Origin: Lysobacteraceae bacterium
GTDB lineage: Bacteria; Pseudomonadota; Gammaproteobacteria; Xanthomonadales; BQJN01
Direction: 5' to 3'
NCBI GenBank assembly: GCA_021604725.1
Contig: BQJN01000002.1
Span: 19,241 to 83,240, forward strand
DNA: 64,000 nucleotides
The notes below the pieces were generated by a model that was not told the DNA's origin, did not search any database, and saw nothing but the letters and a program-made list of their open reading frames with translations. Positions 1 to 13,117 of the stretch are shown in pieces (position 1 is the first letter of the stretch; each line of letters opens with the position of its first letter). A program made the position numbers and the translations under genes.

Positions 1-150
1 GTTCCTTTGCTGTGTTTTCGGCCTAATGAAGGATCGCAATATTGGCAGCAAGAATACGGTCAATGGCCAAGTGGGATTGCTAAAAATTGCCAAAAAATAG
101 CTAACATTGAGCGGCCGTCGCGAACACCTGAAATGAGAATGGCGGGCTAG
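1..150 (+). CDS. possible 3' end of a CDS truncated by window start (…PNEGSQYWQQEYGQWPSGIAKNCQKIANIERPSRTPEMRMAG*)
   Basis: Frame 1 open from base 1 to TAG at 148-150; no start visible; identity unknown. Confidence 0.3.
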   Translation, partial: VPLLCFRPNEGSQYWQQEYGQWPSGIAKNCQKIANIERPSRTPEMRMAG

Positions 151-374
151 TTGGTGACGGGCTTGGTTACACCTTTCAAGAGAAACCTGAGGGCCTTTGG
201 GGTCGCCGGCAATCAGGTTTGGAGTCCTTGCCACAAATGGCAGCTCAGTCTTTGGGGGCGGCAGGAGACGGTTTTGGTCGTAGAATTTTCCCCGGTTCTA
301 AGGGGTTTGTATTGGCCCCTTGATCGGGCGAATCAATCTTTCGAACTGGTGTTGCTGGCCGTTGTTTTTTCGTC

Positions 375-980
375 TTACTCACCTTTGATTTCCTCTACTT
401 TGTAAAACTCAATCCATCGGACGTCCTTAGCCGGAATCAGTATGTCACGGGCCCTCAACTGCGTTTCGCTACCGTCACCGCTAACCCACGCAGCCTCTGA
501 GACGTCGAAATGTCCTTCGTCAGGTGTAGGCGGCCAATGCAACACAAAGCATAGCAGCCTTTTACCATTTTCCAAGTGAAGTAGGACATACCCATGCGAG
601 TCCATGAAACGACCATACCAAACCGAATGGTACGACGTTTCTCTCGTAACACTTCGGCTGCGGGCAAGCCGATGAATATAGTCGTTGTTTGCAGCATGTG
701 CGAAAAGCAGTCCTAGACAGAGCCCCCAAAGTACGGAAGAAACCAGAGTTGATGTCTCCGTCCAGGGACCAAGTATCACCCATCGACCCAAGAATAGGGC
801 GATGCCCTCAGTAAGCTTTATGACTACCTGAACAAAGAGCGTGTAGATCAGGGCTTGGATGACATCAGCGAATTGAGACTCTGAGCGATAGGCCGTTAAT
901 CCCCGGAAGACCCACAGCACCAGAAAACCAGGAAGAAGGTATTGAAGTATGTCGATTAGGCCTTCAGATAGGTGCGCCAT
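375..980 (-). CDS. DUF6338-like membrane protein
   Basis: 201 aa ORF; N-terminal hydrophobic segments (LLPGFLVLWVFRGLTAY…) resembling DUF6338 proteins; divergent from the 1070 gene. Confidence 0.65.
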   Translation of the reverse strand: MAHLSEGLIDILQYLLPGFLVLWVFRGLTAYRSESQFADVIQALIYTLFVQVVIKLTEGIALFLGRWVILGPWTETSTLVSSVLWGLCLGLLFAHAANNDYIHRLARSRSVTRETSYHSVWYGRFMDSHGYVLLHLENGKRLLCFVLHWPPTPDEGHFDVSEAAWVSGDGSETQLRARDILIPAKDVRWIEFYKVEEIKGE

Positions 981-1069
981 CGTAGTAGGGACTTGTTATC
1001 CAATAATCACCAACTATGCTATATGTATAACTACATTTCACGCAATTGTAGCTATAGGGTTTGGAATCG

Positions 1070-1579
1070 ATGACCCCACGTTCGACCGATGACCAGCTGC
1101 GCGCTGCCGACGCTATGGTCGGCAAAGCCATACGTGCCTTTAGCGAACTTGAGGTCGAATTGCACTTGTGTCTTCGCGAGTTCCTGCCTCTTGAGTCATA
1201 CGAACACCTCGCAAAAAAGAGGCATCTTTCCATACCGATACTGACATCCGTCGTGTACGCGATGGTCTCAATAGATGTAGCAAAGTTGGAGCCCGTCGAC
1301 CGAGAGCAGTTAGAGACCGACTTACGCGCGTGCTTGGATGAAATAGAAAGCCTATCGAAAACCCGCAACAAATTGGCTCACAGTCCAGTATCAATCTGGC
1401 AGAACTCTGGGTTATTCCCTAGGAGCCGTTACGATGGCGTCGGTATATTTCGCAGCGCAAATGGTAAGGAGCTTCAATTGGATCTGACTAGTATAGAAAC
1501 GTTCGCTTTGGCAACAGTTGAAGCGCGACGAAAGCTCCAAGTGGTCATGTCCCACATTTCGCGATCGAGGGAAGAATGA
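1070..1579 (+). CDS. hypothetical protein with HEPN-like RX4H motif (KTRNKLAHS)
   Basis: ORF; ATG at 1070 (TTG at 1061 also possible); helical protein with RNKLAH near C-terminal half; 4-bp overlap with downstream gene. Confidence 0.65.
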   Translation: MTPRSTDDQLRAADAMVGKAIRAFSELEVELHLCLREFLPLESYEHLAKKRHLSIPILTSVVYAMVSIDVAKLEPVDREQLETDLRACLDEIESLSKTRNKLAHSPVSIWQNSGLFPRSRYDGVGIFRSANGKELQLDLTSIETFALATVEARRKLQVVMSHISRSREE

Positions 1580-2340
1580 AGACTGATAAGGACGCGCAAA
1601 AAGTGTCGATGTCCGTCAGGGTTCGCAAGCCAAGTAAGCACAAGACTCCGGGACGGTTTTTCGGTGTGTTGGCAGGACTAGCAGTCCTCGGCGGTTTCGT
1701 ATCTTATTGGCACTGGGTAAGTGAGATTCATCCGATTGAAAGCGGGGCAGGAACTCTCGGTGACAGTTTCGGGCCGCTAACCTCACTTTTCACTGGGCTG
1801 GCATTCGTCGGTCTAGTAGTCACACTACTTCTCCAAAGGGCCGACTTAAGACACCAGATGATGGAGCTCGAAGAGACTAGGGGCGATGCCAACCGGAGAG
1901 GGATCGAGGCGACCTATTTCCAGATGCTTCGACTGTGGAGCGAATCAGTCCATCAATTGGAAACGAAGAACCATTGCGGTAGGCAGGTAGTCTCGCTATT
2001 TTTCAACAAGATGTCTGGCACTGGCGACCTACAGATACACGAGTCATTCAACGAGGTTTGGCACAATCGAGGGTTTGACGAACTGCTCGAGCCTATTTAC
2101 TCCAAGTTCTTGTTCGAAATACTACTTTTCATCGAGACTAGAACAGAAACCACAGACACTCAGTCAAAAGTTTTGTACCAAAGGCTGTTGCGGGCTCAAT
2201 TATCCAAGAAGGAATTCGAGCTAGTATTGCATATCATTCGACACAAAAAATGCGATTCGGGCCTCGAGCGCCTATTCGGGTCGATTTGCGCGATTGAGAT
2301 GGAGGGCGAAGGCGAGAATAGAGACTTCAACGCAAAGTGA
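1576..2340 (+). CDS. putative phage abortive infection protein-like (putAbiC family) membrane protein
   Basis: 254 aa; two N-terminal TM segments flanking FGPLTSLFTGLAFVGLVVTLLLQRADL; RGIEATYFQMLRLW and YQRLLRAQLSKKEFELV typical of putAbiC. Confidence 0.7.
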   Translation: MKTDKDAQKVSMSVRVRKPSKHKTPGRFFGVLAGLAVLGGFVSYWHWVSEIHPIESGAGTLGDSFGPLTSLFTGLAFVGLVVTLLLQRADLRHQMMELEETRGDANRRGIEATYFQMLRLWSESVHQLETKNHCGRQVVSLFFNKMSGTGDLQIHESFNEVWHNRGFDELLEPIYSKFLFEILLFIETRTETTDTQSKVLYQRLLRAQLSKKEFELVLHIIRHKKCDSGLERLFGSICAIEMEGEGENRDFNAK

Positions 2341-2516
2341 AGGCAAGGCAAGCAAGCAAACCGGGGGAACTTTTGGGGGAACTGGCATTGTGTTCCGTGA
2401 GTTAAATTCATTATTTCCAAGGGCTTATGTTAACTATATGGTAGCGCCCCTGGCACCATTCCTTTCATACGATAGCTCCTAGCCGCGACGAAACTCCAAT
2501 GCTTCGGACGTAGCGC

Positions 2517-3060
2517 TGTGGGCGGAATCGAACGGCGTTGGGTGCTTCGCGAAGGAGTTGGGTGTTGGGTTGGACCCGTGGTGCCACCAACCCTCCATGG
2601 TAGCCACCCGGCCTGCACGTCCATGTGCAGGCGTTTGTCCGCCGCAGAGTGCCTTGGGGCACTCCGCACTGATGGCGGCCAAACCCCTGGGCACCATTCC
2701 TTTGGCTCCTGATACTCATCACTTCGCAGTGGTACGTTTGTGCTTCGGCTTGTCAGGCTGTGGGTGAGCCGGATCCACCAGAACGAGTGACTTAACGTCA
2801 CTCGGTCCCGGCGAACGACGGTACATGGATGTACCGGCTGGGTGCGGTCCAGGTAGGGTTGTTGCCATCATCCTCGCCTATTGGTACAACCGAGGCAATC
2901 GGTCCCGGCGAAGGTCCTTACATGAGGGGGGCTTTCCAGGTCGCGCAACATTAGAGCGAACGCACGGGCAAGCCCTTCTCCCAGCGAGTTGGCGAGCGAC
3001 ACGGGAGAAGGTGGCTGCACGTTTAGGTGCAGACGGATGAGGGGCTCATGCTGGTTGTAG
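2517..3060. repeat. intergenic array of modular hairpins (REP-like)
   Basis: Hairpins at 2611-2632, 2647-2664, 2784-2804, 2819-2836 and 3015-3032; block 2778-2836 is homologous in reverse complement to 11780-11837. Confidence 0.75.
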
Positions 3061-3312
3061 CCTTTTGGATTGAGTGACGACCAGGGTGCTGCGTTGGTGG
3101 TGCCGGAGAAGCCGTCCTTGGCGAAGTGCTGAACTTTGTTGGAGTCTCGAGCCTTGCGCCCAAACGCCGACCGAATGTTTGTCGTGAGAAGGCCGGAAAC
3201 TAATGGGCGTAATGAGCGTTGGACATGCAATGTTTGAGTGTCCAAACTATTGCGCTCATCTACATTTTTTGTGGGCACTGCGTGTTCTGCGATCAATTCG
3301 TGAGGAGTTTGC

Positions 3313-4351
3313 GTGAAACAACGCATCGATGTAGGAACTGATGTTGCGCGGGTTGGTGTTTGGGATGCGTCTTGTGCGGATGATCCGTTGCCGGAGCTTG
3401 GGATTGGCCAGCTTGCGGATGTGATTGCGGAGGATGCGAAGCGGGGGCGGGTGTTTCTTCTGCAGCTTGGGGGTGATTGGGGTGGTTCGGTTGATGTCTA
3501 TGTAGACAGCTCTGTGTGTGACGAGCATTCCGGTGCGATGGAGCGCTTGCCGGGGAAGTTTCTGGTGTCGGCTCCAACGGGTCAAATTGTGGTTGGAGGG
3601 GCTGAGGACTATCGACGTGCAGAACCTGGGATTACGTCCGAGTCCAGCGTTGTCGAGCTGCCGGTTGGCGACTACAGTGTTGAATGCTATGAGTTGAAGA
3701 GCGGGCATCATGAGTATCCAGATGGGCCGTCTTTTGAGGAAGTTAAAAAGGATGTTGGTGCTGAGGCATACGAGTATTACGAGCGCTTCAACAAGGGAAG
3801 CTCTGATTAATTCGAATATGACTCTGGCCTACAGAGCAGTTCGCAATCGAGGCCTTCCTTCGAAAGCATGCTCACTGCCTGGTGAGAAGGAATAACGAAG
3901 AGTGCGGGCTGCTCTGCAGGCCCCGCAGGGCTTGGCCTGAAGCGCACATCTGCGTTGTTCCATCCCTTGCCAAGGGCTACGGCCATTGCCTGCGGAATGC
4001 GCCTAGCAGCTGCACGCTTCAGGTCAAGCAGAGCCGCATTCGAATTGATCAGAGCTTCCCAAGCAAACCCTCCGTGGATTTTTTCTGCCCATTCTCTTTT
4101 TTCCGCTTTGGTATTTCTTTGGGGCCTTAATCGCTGCGGTAATTACCGCTGTGTTGTTCTTCGGGTACTTTCATATTCAGGATTGGAGACAGCGGCGAGA
4201 CCCCAGGTATTGCCTGGTCGACAAAGCGGCACAGTCGGCCAGGGTGCAGGCAGCAGAGACGATGCCACCGGCTTTTGCATTGGTGTTGACACGACTGAGT
4301 TCAAAGGGGCAACTTCAGGGTGGAATCTTGGACTGCTCTCATGTTCAGTGA
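3313..4351 (+). pseudogene. membrane protein gene interrupted by MITE-like element (5' part 3313-3794, 3' part from 4061)
   Basis: ORF 3313-3810 takes its stop codon from inside the element; deleting 3795-4060 plus one AA copy gives one continuous frame …YYERFNKQTLRGFFLPILFFPLWYFFGALIAAVITAVLFFGYFHIQDW… to TGA at 4349-4351. Confidence 0.75.
3795..4060 (+). mobile_element. MITE-like element, copy 1 (266 bp)
   Basis: Terminal inverted repeats GGGAAGCTCTGATTAATTCGAAT / ATTCGAATTGATCAGAGCTTCCC; AA on both sides; no transposase ORF; second copy in opposite orientation at 4766. Confidence 0.85.
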
Positions 4352-4455
4352 ACAGCTACAGTCAGGCTGCGCTGCAGCTATTCTATTTGATGCAAGGACA
4401 AAACCGGCAGCCGCCGGCCTCCTTGAACTCCTGATCTCCCTGTTCACTTATAAAA
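4340..4455. repeat. degenerate copy of the CACAATGAGA-type inverted-repeat element
   Basis: Shares GGCTGCGCTGCAGCTAT…CCGGCAGCCGCCGGCCTCCTTGAACTCCTGATCTCCCTGTT with 7140-7260. Confidence 0.65.
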
Positions 4456-4475
4456 AAGTCGATCCGTCCCCAATC

Positions 4476-5239
4476 ATGTCCAAAAAGCGAAAGTCCAAAT
4501 ACAAAGCCTACGTTCCGCATCCTCGCTACGGAGACAAGCCGGTTTACTCCGGGGAGAGCTTTACGCTTGAAGAGATCCATTCGGCGTTCTGGCGGTACCG
4601 AGGTGAGGCGGTGTTTCCAGAGTCGGCGGTGGCGGCGGATGTGGACAAGCAGAATTACTCGATCTTTCCGCGCAAGGTGTATGTGGACATTGAGAAAGCG
4701 TGCAGGGAATGCGGTAGGCACTTTCTTTTTTACGCTCTGGAACAGCGGTACTGGTTTGAAGAGTTGGGAAGCTCTGATCCATTGGAATACGGCTCTGCTT
4801 GACCTGAAGCGTGCAGCTGCTAGGCGCATTCCGCAGGTAATGGCCGTAGCCCTTGGCAAGGGATGGAACAACGCAGATGTGCGCTTCAGGCCAAGCCCTG
4901 CGGGGCCGGCAGAGCAGCCCGCACTCTATCGTCATGCCTCCTCACCAGGCAGTGAGCATGCTTTCGGAGGAAGGCCTCGATTGCGAACTGCTCTGTAGGC
5001 CAGAGTCATATTCGAATGGGTCAGAGCTTCCCTTGGGATTCTACGTTGATGCGGACTGTGTGAAGTGTGTTGAGTGCAGGAAGGCGGAGCAGCAGGTGAA
5101 GCTGTTGATGCTGGAGTATGAGGCTTTACTGAAGCTAGACAAGCGAGACGGTCAGGAGTCGGCCAGGTTGAAGGAGGTTGCCGAGGAGCTGTTCCGGGTA
5201 GGCTACATCAAGAATCCGGACAAGGCTCGAGGGAAGTAG
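4476..5239 (+). pseudogene. zinc-ribbon domain protein gene interrupted by MITE-like element copy 2
   Basis: 5' part MSKKRKSKYKAYVPHPRYGDKP…YVDIEKACRECGRHFLFYALEQRYWFEEL; 3' part GFYVDADCVKCVECRKAEQQVK…; deleting 4766-5032 plus one TT copy restores EELGFYVDADCVKC in frame. Confidence 0.85.
4766..5032 (-). mobile_element. MITE-like element, copy 2 (267 bp)
   Basis: Reverse complement of 3795-4060 with few differences; ends GGGAAGCTCTGA/TCAGAGCTTCCC; TT on both sides. Confidence 0.87.
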
Positions 5240-5368
5240 TCCAGTCCGGTTGAATTCCTCCGTGTTAACACCACGATCCGCCCGTTTCACCCCATTTTGA
5301 CACTGGCTTCATTGCAAGGGCCTCAGGGTCGACTTATTAATGATTGCACTTAAGACCAATGAGGCTGA

Positions 5369-6820
5369 GTGATCATGAACATGCATACCCAAGGTTGTAC
5401 GAGGGGTATCGCAGTGAGGTGTGTTTCGGTTCTTGCCATAGTATCTGTGCTCGCCTTTCGTTCAGAGGCGGGGATTGATGTTGGGTCGACACCATTGCGG
5501 CCGCCACTCGATGCCGATATCGCTTTGTCAGGGGTCTGGGCCGATTCTTGCGTGCCGGAGAATCTGGCCAAGGTCAACTATCGGCCGAACGAGATCGAAC
5601 TGGTCGTTGGTTTTCATACCTCGCATTATTTCGCCTGCGGCTTCGCCTTTACTCCGTACTCGTTTGATGTTCAGTCGTTAAACATACCGGCAGTGGCGCC
5701 GATTGATTCGGGCACGGTAGTCCTAAGAAAAGAGCAGCTACTGCATGCATCGATGTCTGAATCAGTACAAGTTGAGGTGTCGTTGCCTCCCGCAGTTTCA
5801 CAGTTCGCATACCTGATTACCACAAATTCCGACATCGCGATTTATCGAGTCGATGACTGGACCAAGGTGGCGACGATCCAGACAAACTATGCGGAGCGGC
5901 TTTTTTCGAATCAAAACAACTATTTCATGCTCACGGGCGAAACAACGCCAGGGACCACGTCGGAATCCCTGGGCTATTTGGACTCTGATCTCAATCAAGT
6001 GCTTGCGGTCAGGAGAGGGGCCACTGTTATGGACATCGTGATGATTGACACTGGGTCGCCATGGTTTACTGACGGCGCCTACATGGTCAGCGAAAGCGAC
6101 CCCCGTACTGTTCGTTCCGACTCGTTTCAGACCTACTTGCTCGGTGTTGTTGGTGGCCTGGCGTACTCGGACCGCTATCTGTTTGCCTCGCAGCCCGAGA
6201 TCAACAAGGTTGTTGCCCTGGATCTGACCGATGGAAACATTGTCGAAGAAATCGTCGTCGGGGCAGGGCCGACACTCGCCCATCAAAGCACGGAGCTGGA
6301 TCGCATCATCGTGGCAAATCAGGGCGACCAAAGCATTGGCCTGATAGATGCTGTGACTCGTCAGTTGGTGGCAACATCAGACGTTGATTCACAGATTGCA
6401 CAGTTTACCTTTGCCGACAGTTCGAATCGGTTCTACGCGGTGTTGCGAAATGGCACCATCCAAGGGGTCTCCGCGACAGATGGGCTTGTTACAGATGCTA
6501 TGGCGTTTGTGCAGCCCGCGATTGGGGTGGCAATGAATCAACAGCGCAATGAGCTTTACGTCGTGCTATCCGGAGGGAACGGTACCGACATCGCCGTGGT
6601 CGATGCTCTTACCATGGAGCAGTTGAAGACTGTTCACCTGCCGGACATTACAACATCAATTGCCCACTACACGTCCCGTAGCTATCGCCTACCTGCACCG
6701 CAGGGAATACCCGCTAGACAGATTCCAGTAAACGGCGCTATTTGGCTGTGCCTGCTCCTGGTTCTGGCCTCGGTGATCGGTTTACGCACGCTGCGATCGC
6801 GACAAGCGTTGCGCGATTGA
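5369..6820 (+). CDS. secreted YncE-like beta-propeller protein with C-terminal TM tail
   Basis: 483 aa; signal peptide; repeated blades (VVALDLTDGNIVEEI, IGLIDAVTRQLVATS, IAVVDALTMEQLKTV); C-terminus IPVNGAIWLCLLLVLASVIGLRTLRSRQ. Confidence 0.75.
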   Translation: MIMNMHTQGCTRGIAVRCVSVLAIVSVLAFRSEAGIDVGSTPLRPPLDADIALSGVWADSCVPENLAKVNYRPNEIELVVGFHTSHYFACGFAFTPYSFDVQSLNIPAVAPIDSGTVVLRKEQLLHASMSESVQVEVSLPPAVSQFAYLITTNSDIAIYRVDDWTKVATIQTNYAERLFSNQNNYFMLTGETTPGTTSESLGYLDSDLNQVLAVRRGATVMDIVMIDTGSPWFTDGAYMVSESDPRTVRSDSFQTYLLGVVGGLAYSDRYLFASQPEINKVVALDLTDGNIVEEIVVGAGPTLAHQSTELDRIIVANQGDQSIGLIDAVTRQLVATSDVDSQIAQFTFADSSNRFYAVLRNGTIQGVSATDGLVTDAMAFVQPAIGVAMNQQRNELYVVLSGGNGTDIAVVDALTMEQLKTVHLPDITTSIAHYTSRSYRLPAPQGIPARQIPVNGAIWLCLLLVLASVIGLRTLRSRQALRD

Positions 6821-6917
6821 CGCAGTCTCAACTCATCGGGGCACTGCATGATCGCATGGTTAGGGACCGGGACTCAGTCCTCGCTGAGATTGAAACGCGC
6901 GCTCACGCGCTCGAAGA

Positions 6918-7050
6918 AAATAATCACAATGAGAGAAGGAGGTCAGAGAGGCTGCACTGCAGCTTCACTATTTGATTGAAGATCGAAAAATCCGGCGAAC
7001 TCGCCGGTCTCCCTGACCTCCTGACCTCCTAGTTTCCTGTTTCTTTCAGA
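6918..7050. repeat. CACAATGAGA-type inverted-repeat element, copy
   Basis: aataatcacaatgagagaaggaggtca…ggctgcactgcagc…ccggcgaactcgccgg…; same layout as 7140-7260. Confidence 0.7.
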
Positions 7051-7139
7051 GGGACTGTGTCCGTATTCCCGGCGGCCATCGTTTTGAAACTGGCCCAGTC
7101 AATAAGCTGCCAAACCAACTTCATACGTACTTAAAAGGC

Positions 7140-7260
7140 AAATGATCACAATGAGAGAAGGAGGTCAATGAGGCTGCGCTGCAGCTATGCTGTTTGGTGC
7201 TAGCGTAAAGCCGGCAGCCGCCGGCCTCCTTGAACTCCTGATCTCCCTGTTTCATTTTTC
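7140..7260. repeat. CACAATGAGA-type inverted-repeat element, copy
   Basis: aatgatcacaatgagagaaggaggtcaatgaggctgcgctgcagc…ccggcagccgccggcc…ctgatctccctg; shared with 4340-4455 and related to 38711-39360. Confidence 0.75.
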
Positions 7261-7361
7261 TTAAGTTGACCTACAACCAGCAGCCGTTTCCGTAGCCCTA
7301 TCCAATATCTAGTGCGCTCGGTATCATCATTGGCTTTGTTTCTTCGTTTTACTCGGCGGGA

Positions 7362-8549
7362 TTGGATTTCTTGAACTGGATTAAGACATTGGTGATTTGC
7401 GGCGCGATTGTGGCGTCGGCTGCATTGGCGTTAGCGGCGATATACACTACCGAGCCGACGGCCCAGCGTACCAGCGCATCGCGTGAAACAGCCATGCTGG
7501 TGGAGGTCACCGAGGTAAGCCATGGAACTTACACGCCGACACTTTCGGCGGTTGGGTCAGTGCGTGCAGAGAAAGAAATCATGCTCAGTTCGCGCGTGGC
7601 GGGCGAGATTATTGCAGTCGCTGATGGTTTTTCGCCGGGTGGCTTCGTCGAACAGGGCGAGGTGTTATTGCGTATTGACCCTGCCGATTACGACGCTGCG
7701 TTGACGCAACGCCTTAGCGAGTTACATCAGGCACAAGCAGATTTCGAGCTTGAACTGGGACGCCAGGAGTTGGCCCGCGGGGATTATGAGGAGCTGAAAG
7801 GGTCGATTTCACCTCAATACGAAACCCTGGTGTTGCGACGGCCACAGCTCAATGCGGCTCGAGCCCGCGTCGAGGCCGCAGAGGCCGCGGTAAAACGTGC
7901 CGAGCTGGACCTTGAACGTACTCGTATAAGAGCGCCGTTCGCCGCGCAGGTGCTGACCCGTGAAGTCAACCTGGGCAGCCAGGTTTCGCCGGCTGAAACC
8001 CTCGGGCAATTGGTGGGTACCGATCAATACTGGGTCGAGGTGGCTTTGCCAGCTGCCGATGTGTCCTGGATCCGCTTCCCGGATGCGCAGCAGTCAGAGG
8101 GATCTGTCACCCGAGTCCGAAATCGAACTGCCTGGCCTGAAGGGGTCTACCGCACCGGCTTCGCCAAAAGCCTGATTGGCGCATTGGACAGCCAGACACG
8201 CCTTGCACGAGTGTTGGTCGCCGTGACTGATCCGCTGTCTCAGCTATCCGAGTCCGCCGGACAGCCGCCGCTAATGGTGGGGTCTTTTGTCGAAGCGAAC
8301 ATTGAAGGCCGACCCATAGAGAACGTCATACGGCTCGAACAGGATTACTTGCGCCGCAACGATACTGTGTGGGTCAACGGCAATGGCCAACTCGAAATTC
8401 GCGACGTGGATGTGCTGTTTCGGGACAAGACGTTTGCCTACATCAGAAGCGGTCTGGCTGAGGGCGAACAGGTGGTGATGACAGATCTGGCCACTGTGAT
8501 TGCCGGAGCCGCCCTTCGTTTGGACCGATCAGATAACAGCGATGAGTAA
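7362..8549 (+). CDS. RND efflux transporter periplasmic adaptor subunit (HlyD/MFP family)
   Basis: 395 aa; [43 protein letters not shown] lipoyl-like motif; coupled to RND permease. Confidence 0.9.
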
Positions 8550-11500
8550 GTTTACACCCGGCAGGGATGGGTTCATTTCGTGGATGGCGCAGCACTCCAT
8601 TGCAGCCAACCTGTTGATGCTTTTGCTGATTGGTGGTGGCATCTGGACCGCCATCAACATTCAGAAAGAAGTACATCCAGAATTTGAGCTGGATATCGTC
8701 AGCGTCAGCGTGGGTTACCCGGGGGCAGCGCCAACCGAGGTTGAGCAGGGCATTCTGCGTCCGGTGGAAGAAGCCATCCGCGGCATTCAGGGTATTCGCG
8801 AGATCACCTCTACCGCACGAGAAGGGTCGGGCTCGGTGACGATCGAATTGGTCACCGGCATTGAGCGGATGAAGGTTTTCCAGGAAATCGACCAGGCGGT
8901 GAATCGCATTCGCACATTTCCTGACGACACCGAAAAACCCGAGGTTTCCCTGCGATCACAGCAGCGAGAAGTGATGTCGCTGGCTCTGTATGGAGACGTC
9001 GACGTCTGGACGCTTCGCAAGCTCAGTGAGCAACTACGCGACCGCTTGTTGAACGATCCCTACATCACTCAGGTAGAGCTCAGCAGGGCACTGGACTACG
9101 TGACCCATGTCGAGATCCCGCAACACCGCCTGCGTGAGTATGGCCTGACGCTAGGGCAGGTGGCGCAGATGATCCGCAACTCCAGCGAGGATGTGCCGGC
9201 CGGGGTGGTCGAAACCAATGCCGGCGAAGTTTTGCTGCGAATGAAGGAGCGCAGGCAGTGGTCTGATGAATTTGCCAACATTGAAATCATTTCTTCGGGT
9301 ACCGGCGCATCGGTCAAACTCGGCGACATTGCGACCATCACAGACGGCTTCGAAGAGGTTAGCTTCCACTCGCAGTTCAACCAGCAGTATTCGGCGCAGA
9401 TTGAGATTTACCGCGTTGGTAGGCAATCGCCGCAGGAAATCGCAGAACGAGTCCAAGCTGTCATGGCGGATTTCGAGACCACCCTGCCCAAAGGCGTGGC
9501 CTGGCGAATTGACGGAAACGCCGCGCGCGACTACGAGCAGCGACTGAACTTGTTGCTGGAAAATGGCTTCCTGGCCATTGGCATCGTGCTGTTGATCCTG
9601 GCCCTGTTCCTGGAATTTCGCCTGGCATTCTGGGTGATGATGGGCATGACCATCTCGTTTATTGGTGCCATCCTGTTCCTGCCGGTGGTGGGCGTGAGCA
9701 TCAACATGATTTCCATGTTTGCCTTCCTGGTGGTGCTCGGTATCGTGGTTGACGATGCCATCGTGGTCGGTGAAAACGTCTACGAGAACCGGCAAAAGGG
9801 GCTGGACCACATGACAGCGGCCATTGCAGGCACGCAGGAAATAGCCAAGCCAGTCACGGTCGCCATTATCACCACTATCGTGGCCTTTGTGCCCCTGTTG
9901 TTCATGCCCGGCACAACCGGCAAGTTCTGGTGGCCGTTGCCGGCCGTAGTCATCACGGTACTGGCCTTGTCCTTGATTGAGGCGCTGTACATCTTGCCCG
10001 CACACCTGGCGCACAGCAGCAGCAAGCCGCGCTCCGCCGTGGGTGTGCGTTTGCATGAGCTGCAACAAAGGTTTGCGCGGGCGTTTAGCCATTTCGTCAA
10101 TACACGCTACCGAAGTTTCCTCGACCTGTGCCTGAAACATCGCTACGTGACCATCACTGTGGCATTGGCCCTGTTGGTGGTCGTCGGTGGCTATGCCCGC
10201 AGCGGACACATGGGCATGATACTGATGCCACAGGTTGCCGCCGATGAAATCGAGGCGGGTATTCGTTTGCCCGTTGGCACCACGCCCGACCAGGCGGCCC
10301 GCGTAGCGCAACAAGTCACCGATGCCACGCTGCGAATGTTTGACGAACACGATCTGTATCAAGCGGCCCACGGCGTCAAGACCAATGTTCGGGGCGGCGC
10401 ATTTGTCGACGTTGAAATCGTGATGCGACCGCCGGATGAGCGAGACCTGTCGGCTGATGATGTCATTCAACTGTGGCGAGATCAGATTGGCGATATCGAA
10501 GGGGTTGATCAGATCACCTTCGAGGCGGAGCGTGGCCCGGGTGGGCATAGAAAAGAGATTGTGATTGATCTTAGCCATTCGGACATTGAAGTACTGGAAC
10601 TGGCGAGCCAGGCCCTGGTTGATCGACTTCGGGAGTTCGAAGACGCGGTCAACATCAACGACAACAGCAGCCGCGGCAAATTGCAGTTCGACTTCACCTT
10701 GCTACCGGAAGGGCGAAACCTTGGCTTAACCCCGGCAGATGTCGGCCAACAGGTTCGCGATGCGTTCTTCGGCGCGCTGGCCATGCGCCAGATTCGGGGC
10801 ACCAACGAAGTCGAAATACGCGTCAAGCTGCCGCGAGAAGACCGCAAAGACATCCAGACCTTCTCAGACCTGGTGATTTACACACCGGATGGCACCGAAG
10901 TGCCGTTGCTGGATGTTGTGGAATTGCGTCGCGGCGAGGCTTACAGTTCGATCAGCCGTCGGGACGGCCGGCGAGTGGTCAGTGTGGGCCTGGATGTCGA
11001 GCCAAAGCGCAATGTGTCACGCGTACTGGAGGCGATAAACACTCAAACGCTGCCGGAATTGCGCGCCAATCATCCCGGCTTGACCTGGTCCTTTGAAGGC
11101 AGCCAGGCTGAAATGCGCGAATCAACCGCCACGCTTTGGGGTGGGTTCGGCCTGGCCATGGCCGTGGTGTACGCTCTGCTGGCGGTGGCATTTGGCAGCT
11201 ATCTGCAGCCCATCATCGTCATGCTGGCCATTCCGTTTGGAATAATCGGTGCAGTCATCGGGCATATCCTGTTGGGTCATGACCTGTCACTGGTGAGTTT
11301 GATGGGAGTGATCGCCCTGTCAGGCGTGGTCATCAACGATGCGCTCATCATGATCGAATTGGCGAATCGTCAGCGAGGCAAAGTGTCTGCGTATGAAGCC
11401 ATTCATTCGGCCGGGCTGCGACGTTTCCGCCCCATCGTGCTGACCACCTTGACGACATTTGGCGGTCTGACCCCCATCATCCTGGAAACATCTCGCCAGG

Positions 11501-11661
11501 CCGCTCACCTGGTGCCAATGGCCATATCCCTGGGGTTTGGGATCGTCTTCGCTACCGCGATTATTCTTGTGCTCATCCCGTGTCTGTACATGATGCTGGA
11601 GGACATAAAGGAGCGTCGGGTAACAAGGCCTGAGCAGGGTGATGAGGTTGTTGTTCCTTAG
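8542..11661 (+). CDS. RND efflux transporter permease (AcrB/HAE1-like)
   Basis: ~1039 aa from ATG 8542, overlapping the adaptor stop; [51 protein letters not shown]. Confidence 0.95.
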
Positions 11662-11744
11662 AGATTTGGACTGCGGGTTGGTTTTGGGTTCATTCAAGAG
11701 CGACAGCCAGTTGGTATCTTTGGGGGGCGGGCCAGTAGGGTAGT

Positions 11745-11960
11745 GGGGCGGCAACAACCGTCCATGGACCGCAGCCAGCCCGCACATCCATGTGCGGTCG
11801 TTCGCCGGGATCGAGTGATCAATATCACTCGTTCTGGGCCCAGCTCACCCATCCATGGCGCGGCGAACTACCTTCGAGTGAAAGCCCAGCCTCGACATCC
11901 ATGTCGAGTCGTTCGGCGCTTGTGGCGTGCCTTGGGGCACCCCACTACTACAGCGCCTCA
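11745..11960. repeat. intergenic array of modular hairpins (REP-like)
   Basis: CCGCACA-TCCA-TGTGCGG (11780-11797), CGAGTGAT-CAAT-ATCACTCG (11812-11831), CTCGACA-TCCA-TGTCGAG (~11893-11910), GTGCC-TTGG-GGCAC. Confidence 0.8.
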
Positions 11961-11968
11961 CCCTCATC

Positions 11969-13117
11969 CTAACGTGTGGTTGAATACCGCGGCGTCATCA
12001 CCAACGGTACAAAGAGCAAGAGGGCGGCGATTGCACCAATCAGCCCCACCGACACTACCGAATGGGTAATGGTCAGCGCCGTGATCGTTCCAGCGATCGC
12101 CGGGCCGCTGGCTGCTCCCAGGGCTTCGGTTCCTGGGGCCAGTGCCAGGACCTTGTTGCCATGGCGATCCTCGGCCAGGAAGCCAAGCAAATTTGCGATG
12201 CCGAAATTCCAGCCGAAGCCCCAAAGGGCAAGGCCAATGACGAAACTTGTCTGGCCATTGGATAACGCCAATAGCAGTAGTCCAAGCAGCTGCAGTACAG
12301 CGATACTTGCCAGGCGTAGCAGCGGTCGATTTGCTGAGCCCAGGGCGATGGCTGTCAGTGAGCCGGCGGCCTGAAAGACGATGGAGAGACTCAGGTAGCC
12401 CGCAATATCTGCCGATGCTAGACCCGACTCAGCACCGACTTTGGCGGCGAAGCCCCAGACTGCCCCCAAGTTGAGTGTGAACGCAAACAGACCCAACAGG
12501 GCCATCCAGGGCCTGCTCTGCCAGACGATCCCGGGTCGCCGGGCCTGGTCCAAATCGAGCTTCGGCAGCTGAAAGCTGGCCACTAAAGCTATCACGCCCA
12601 TGCCAGCCAGCAACCCCATCAGCAGCTTCCAAAGATCAGCGCCAACCTGGTCAGGCAGGGAAGCCAGAACAGCGCCAATGATGCACATGTTGGTAAAGGA
12701 GAAGATTGCGAATGCTCGTACCGGACTTGACTGCCGACCAAGCACTACGACGGCACAGGCATACAGCAAGCCATCGCCGGCACAGCCTATTGCAAAGCGC
12801 AGCGCCAGCAGTGTCTGGTAGTCGGTGATCGCGGCCGCTGCGAGGTTGCCCAAGGCGACTACTGCGGCACCGGCAAGTGCCAGTTTTCTTACGCCAATAC
12901 GACGCGTAAAGGCCAGTACCACTATTGAGGCGATGGCGATTCCGAACACTTCTGCGCCCATCAGCCAGCCCAATTGTTGATCGCTCAATTGCAGCAGGTC
13001 TGCGGCGGCCGACAACACCATCGGCGATAAATTGAACATCGCGGTGCCGGCAACGCCGATAACGATCGCGGCAAGCAGTTGGCTCAGCGGATATTTTTCT
13101 GACGAGTTGGTGTTCAC
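11969..13117 (-). CDS. MFS transporter
   Basis: 12-TM-type hydrophobic protein; likely GTG start at 13117 (VNTNSSEKYPLSQLLAAIVIGVAGTAMFNLSPM); the longer 516 aa ORF overlaps the divergent gene. Confidence 0.8.
   Translation of the reverse strand: MNTNSSEKYPLSQLLAAIVIGVAGTAMFNLSPMVLSAAADLLQLSDQQLGWLMGAEVFGIAIASIVVLAFTRRIGVRKLALAGAAVVALGNLAAAAITDYQTLLALRFAIGCAGDGLLYACAVVVLGRQSSPVRAFAIFSFTNMCIIGAVLASLPDQVGADLWKLLMGLLAGMGVIALVASFQLPKLDLDQARRPGIVWQSRPWMALLGLFAFTLNLGAVWGFAAKVGAESGLASADIAGYLSLSIVFQAAGSLTAIALGSANRPLLRLASIAVLQLLGLLLLALSNGQTSFVIGLALWGFGWNFGIANLLGFLAEDRHGNKVLALAPGTEALGAASGPAIAGTITALTITHSVVSVGLIGAIAALLLFVPLVMTPRYSTTR

Follow-up and report, generated by a model that had tools for sequence, protein, structure and literature searches.

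At its left end, the window (the whole stretch of DNA analysed, 64,000 nucleotides, bases 19241–83240 of contig BQJN01000002.1, here C2, from a 4.68-Mb assembly in 210 contigs) carries overlapping genes for a HEPN-like protein and a putAbiC-like membrane protein, and the question is whether these two act together as an anti-phage module or merely share an acquired segment of DNA. An ORF check recovered these genes and a divergent third, all at the coordinates first noted. The features of the locus, in window coordinates, are as follows.

375–980, minus strand: DUF6338 family gene; 201-aa membrane protein with three hydrophobic windows, divergent from the HEPN/putAbiC pair (PF19865, hydropathy)
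981–1069, no strand: divergent intergenic region, 89 nt, AT-rich (GC 37%)
1070–1579, plus strand: HEPN-like protein, 169 aa, with RNKLAH at residues 99–104, window 1364–1381 (family alignment, AF2)
1576–2340, plus strand: putAbiC protein, 254 aa, with transmembrane (TM) helices at about 26–51 and at the start of 65–126, then a helical cytosolic domain (PF16872, phrog_8999, AF2)
2445–2819, plus strand: right-hand direct repeat, opening with a copy of the tRNA-Phe 3' end and 93% identical to C2:18785–19157

The overlap reported in the initial annotation is confirmed: the TGA stop of the HEPN-like gene (1577–1579) and the ATG start of putAbiC (1576–1578) form an ATGA, which implies co-translation, and AGGGAAG lies immediately 5' of the putAbiC start. 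The 172-aa product originally listed does contain RNKLAH, but its start has been revised; the listed TTG at 1061 has an AGGG just ~2 nt upstream, and the ATG at 1070 (AGGG ~11 nt upstream, giving 169 aa) appears the more plausible start from its sequence context. Neither a sigma-70 promoter (sigma-70 scan) nor a terminator was found in 900–2600; the promoters are probably located in the divergent intergenic region. The CTACA…TGTAG inverted repeat at 1031–1051, which had been singled out between the divergent genes, was dropped as a meaningful signal, since shuffling the 89-nt intergenic stretch placed it at chance level (80% of shuffles hold a 5-bp inverted repeat, and the extended 8-nt form with one mismatch was equalled or bettered in 41%). 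The identification of the divergent gene as a DUF6338-like membrane protein stands (PF19865, E = 1.6e-9, 38.1 bits against a cut-off of 26.5); this gene may be mere fellow cargo.

For the 169-aa protein, no library searched, Pfam, PADLOC and PHROG among them, returned a match above threshold. The sub-threshold hints were all HEPN proteins, namely HEPN_Cthe2314 as the top Pfam hint (E = 0.073, 13.5 bits against a cut-off of 27.1) and, in PADLOC, Csx1 (E = 0.0072) and CARF_HEPN (0.025), with alignments spanning the RNKLAH region. As every library match fell below threshold, the HEPN call required a family to be built iteratively. Direct homologue scans found nothing in genome contigs, viral contigs or plasmids, and in 369 genomes of the class the sole match was the window's own assembly. 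When 399 genomes of the phylum were searched loosely (E ≤ 0.1), a single small protein, L137, stood out as a convincing homologue; the remaining matches (ABC transporters and others) were set aside as mostly chance alignments. Used as a query, L137 led to L169, a protein on Pseudomonas syringae plasmids, a two-sequence profile added L152 and L163, and a search of 279 genomes with a five-sequence profile (E ≤ 0.001) brought in a further 14. Queries with L169, L163 and L169 plus L152 gave no match in viral contigs. Genome matches to PF18730 were rejected as relatives, having proved to be HepT-like proteins adjoining MNT genes, and hhalign of the family against the HepT-like pair aligned the motif alone (probability 1.4). 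At L163 (3–1031 and 1258–1785), the small HEPN-family gene is divergent from an integron-integrase-like tyrosine recombinase and is possibly a first-cassette HEPN.

The resulting family comprises 19 sequences of ~160–230 aa, with members 13–20% identical to the window protein. R99, H104 and G18 are invariant (19/19), N100 is conserved in 18 of the 19, and position 28 is acidic throughout (E in 17, D in two); these counts carry some circularity, the members having been collected with profiles in which the motif was included. This was partly controlled for with a profile restricted to the 14 second-round members: searched against the ORFs of the window and the first 126 loci, it had a single hit, the window protein, at E ~1e-5. 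Among the relatives, two have matches to Pfam HEPN_RiboL-PSP, the better at E 1.8e-4, and one has a match to Csx1_HEPN (0.025). In the single-sequence AF2 model (pLDDT 78.9, pTM 0.72) a helix at 75–103 ends with RNKLAH and is followed by a three-strand insertion and a C-terminal helix (139–168). HEPN domains are defined by an Rx4-6H motif, with a polar residue following the R, that closes the penultimate helix (PMC3710099), and the place of Rx4H in the model agrees with this position; the conserved motif and the upstream acidic residue in the family of 19 likewise fit the published description (PMC3710099). Foldseek of the model against the PDB gave no match at E ≤ 0.001 and no HEPN protein among the best 50 listed, with generic helix bundles only for this and the putAbiC model; the best viral match was an unnamed 159-aa protein (prob 1.00, TM 0.62, E 0.018). 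With R and H conserved in homologues and a HEPN-like topology in the model, the HEPN identity first proposed is upheld, and we consider it highly probable; RNase activity would be predicted from the motif. The proteins make up a small RNxxxH family outside Pfam that merits its own model.

The putAbiC assignment was also borne out, by PF16872 (E = 2.4e-5, 25.2 bits against a cut-off of 22) and by phrog_8999 (E = 1.3e-9). An alignment with relatives (n = 26) shows invariant G62, F65, G66 and F72 to G79 positions, and the AF2 model built with the 26 sequences (pLDDT 81.1) contains helices at 26–51 and 65–126 and then a helical domain, the arrangement expected for PF16872, in which cytosolic helices follow a TM pair at the N-terminus. 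Foldseek of this model against the PDB matched no known fold. PADLOC models for AbiP match 24 of the 26 aligned proteins (best 9e-17) and those for AbiC match 16, whereas the window protein, the C-terminus of which is divergent, has no AbiP or AbiC match at E ≤ 0.01 and only a weak one to HEC-02B (E = 0.0032). AbiP is described as membrane-anchored and nucleic-acid-binding in the account of it cited in PMC10127798 (Domingues 2008). The relatives come from phages, plasmids, an integron-like Vibrio region and chromosomes; the filamentous Vibrio phage vB_VipaK (Inoviridae) carries one putAbiC gene (L009:2890–3738), near zot. Beyond its annotation, 'putative phage abortive infection', the family has almost no literature; full-text searching on putAbiC/PF16872 returned no paper in the literature searched.

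For comparison, another 118 loci with putAbiC were gathered from genomes, viral contigs, plasmids and phages; the set includes a few near-duplicates, and some of its contigs stop close to the gene. A relative of the window HEPN protein was present at none of the 118, and putAbiC was absent from the available flanks of all 18 loci of HEPN-family relatives and of all seven other DUF6338 loci. The initial annotation had treated the two genes as a candidate module and had named a failure to co-occur elsewhere as grounds against it; no co-occurrence was found for this HEPN family at the sampled depth, so the pair appears idiosyncratic and not a conserved two-gene system. The only putAbiC locus of the 118 with a HEPN gene upstream is from Devosia (L019:1844–4133), where putAbiC is preceded, at a distance of 98 nt, by a Swt1-like HEPN of another family that carries RNVVAH (E 4.3e-6 and 27.4 bits, just under the cut-off of 27.5). 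At the other putAbiC loci the neighbours include TIR, Mrr, GmrSD, PIN, NACHT, SpbK-like and phage integrase proteins, which places the family among defence and mobile genes; they vary between loci, and a conserved partner is lacking for most putAbiC genes. Most HEPN-family genes, similarly, have no tightly spaced same-strand neighbour, and it appears that most members of both families stand alone. Four individual putAbiC loci hold what are possibly interchangeable partners: a CAP12/PCTIR TIR fragment adjoining the gene (L003:80–1788), an Mrr nuclease with a hydrophobic N-terminus that overlaps it (L084:1973–3591), a 525-aa GmrSD_N-like protein that also overlaps it (L008:3845–6438) and the Swt1-like HEPN ahead of it at L019.

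The genomic setting, which was absent from the initial annotation, is a pair of direct repeats at a tRNA gene. A tRNA-Phe(GAA) gene at C2:18724–18799 is separated from the left end of the window by 441 nt, and a ~375-bp repeat that starts inside its 3' end (C2:18785–19157) recurs at window 2445–2819 (351/377 identical); the tRNA-Phe end copy in the right repeat is one base short. Each repeat contains an additional tRNA-end copy, CCCCTGGGCACCATTCCTTT, at L011:19022 (C2) and window 2684 (2684–2703), respectively. The insert between the repeats measures ~2.5 kb, its only recognised genes are DUF6338, HEPN and putAbiC, and the GC content of these genes (0.495–0.508) is below that of the long ORFs of the window (0.567, sd 0.022). 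No integrase is present on this contig, and four Phage_integrase matches occur elsewhere in the assembly; of the marks of a tRNA-associated integrative element, the locus thus has the direct repeats that duplicate the tRNA 3' end and lacks a nearby integrase. Window 2579–3065 is a hairpin-rich repeat, not in Rfam, with at least 74 matches (72–94% identity) listed across the same assembly, and, because segments of it are dispersed, the three genes could have entered by homologous recombination between repeats instead of through an integrase. By either route the three-gene block looks horizontally acquired, and the tRNA-Phe repeats, as far as their sequence indicates, would mark a site of integration or accretion. 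The tRNA-Phe repeats led us to abandon an integron-cassette reading of the locus. Rfam gave nothing in window 1–12000, and the ~19 kb upstream contained no further gene recognised as defensive.

Several further repeats and a small ORF were observed to the right of the insert. Two 272-nt copies in inverted orientation (window 3792–4062 and 4764–5035; 95% identical, each with internal inverted repeats) flank a small zf_Tbcl treble-clef gene (4320–4802) and are possibly a MITE pair around cargo. Short direct repeats occur at 4359–4444 and 7166–7251 (88%) and at 6918–6974 and 7140–7196 (86%), and a 165-aa ORF beside the insert (3313–3810) has a weak match to DUF6386 (E 0.0023, below cut-off).

The reading that we tentatively favour, at slightly less than even confidence, is that the insert is an acquired ~2.5-kb anti-phage cargo in which a HEPN RNase and a two-TM putAbiC protein form an operon, the membrane protein may work with the RNase, and DUF6338 is divergent. 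Phage infection would perturb or engage the membrane-anchored putAbiC, which would then release the HEPN RNase or position it at the inner membrane; the RNase would cut RNA (host, phage or tRNA) and the infection would be aborted. Gene identities, the conserved R and H, the ATGA overlap, the tRNA-derived flanking repeats and the lower GC were computed for the locus; the anti-phage role, the trigger and a physical or functional coupling of the two proteins are what we infer. For the coupling, the evidence consists of two observations, the gene overlap and the one analogous adjacency in Devosia. HEPN domains fused to TM helices have been proposed to be membrane-controlled RNases (PMC3710099). 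A more specific and rather doubtful form of the proposal is a split system, in which an AbiP/AbiC-type membrane sensor gates a separately encoded HEPN RNase and the HEPN_Swt1/putAbiC arrangement of Devosia is a second, convergent case. If that were true, putAbiC would be a membrane module with interchangeable effectors, of which the Klebsiella GmrSD_N-like and Helicobacteraceae Mrr partners would be further cases.

Because both genes usually stand alone, it is nearly as likely that they are two independent cargo genes, in which case putAbiC would act by itself, through exclusion or abortive infection at the membrane, and the HEPN protein would be an RNase or toxin in its own right, encoded upstream by coincidence. 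The neighbours of putAbiC that differ from locus to locus, the HEPN-family genes that mostly lack a tight same-strand neighbour and in no case adjoin putAbiC, and the position of the insert beside a tRNA gene, where unrelated cargo can accumulate, all point in this direction; the co-translation implied by the ATGA and the existence of a second HEPN/putAbiC adjacency, albeit with a different HEPN, argue against it, and we regard independence as a substantial possibility that falls short of being the expected outcome.

The absence of a HEPN gene from nearly all putAbiC loci tells against putAbiC as a dedicated antitoxin, and so against a toxin–antitoxin-like pair in which the HEPN toxin is restrained by the membrane protein (or by DUF6338) as MNT restrains HEPN toxins. 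HEPN toxins are common in such pairs (PMC3710099, PMC7641770) and a small overlapping bicistron would suit one, but library scans detected no MNT or known antitoxin domain, and the neighbours of the HEPN gene are putAbiC and DUF6338; we judge this arrangement improbable. Least probable, to the point that we would be surprised by it, is that the 169-aa protein is an inactive helical protein with a HEPN-like motif, serving in binding or as a scaffold, with putAbiC the sole effector. The lack of a library match over threshold or a PDB fold match, and a profile comparison with the HepT-like pair that aligned no more than the motif, are what such a protein would give, but R and H are invariant across the 19 sequences despite their low identity to the window protein, and the HEPN_RiboL-PSP and Csx1_HEPN models are reached by its relatives. 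The preferred reading remains the acquired operon of HEPN RNase and putAbiC, in which the translationally coupled HEPN partner gives a concrete handle on putAbiC as a membrane switch for an effector.

Every part of this locus is of a known kind, and the split putAbiC and HEPN arrangement appears undescribed in the literature searched. The window protein shares with the HEPN superfamily the R-N-x3-H ending the penultimate helix, an upstream conserved acidic residue and a helical bundle, its nearest weak matches being Cthe_2314, RiboL-PSP and the Csx1 HEPN, but in its family beta strands are inserted after the motif, ahead of the last helix, and no Pfam model scores above threshold. The membrane protein resembles putAbiC, AbiP and AbiC proteins in its two N-terminal TM helices, its GD.FG...LF.GLAF.G membrane segment and YxRLLRAQLS; it differs in being only 22–32% identical to the aligned relatives, in lacking the FYNC-type C-terminal motif and in being translationally coupled to a HEPN protein. 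Lactococcal AbiP is likewise a membrane-anchored abortive infection protein, the models of which match most putAbiC relatives (Domingues 2008, as cited in PMC10127798), but the account in PMC10127798 mentions no HEPN partner. SNIPE (PMC13190303) offers a parallel in general principle, as a membrane-localised nuclease defence, although it involves other proteins and cuts DNA, not RNA, and no homology is claimed. A comparable logic has been proposed for the TM-fused HEPN groups (DUF4145-WP, Abi2/Swt1-TM and HEPN-TM-Zn-ribbon; PMC3710099), in which a membrane element controls a cytoplasmic HEPN RNase; in the window, by contrast, the genes are separate and overlapping and the membrane part is putAbiC. 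Should the pair be shown to work, putAbiC and HEPN would constitute a new variant of membrane-controlled HEPN defence.
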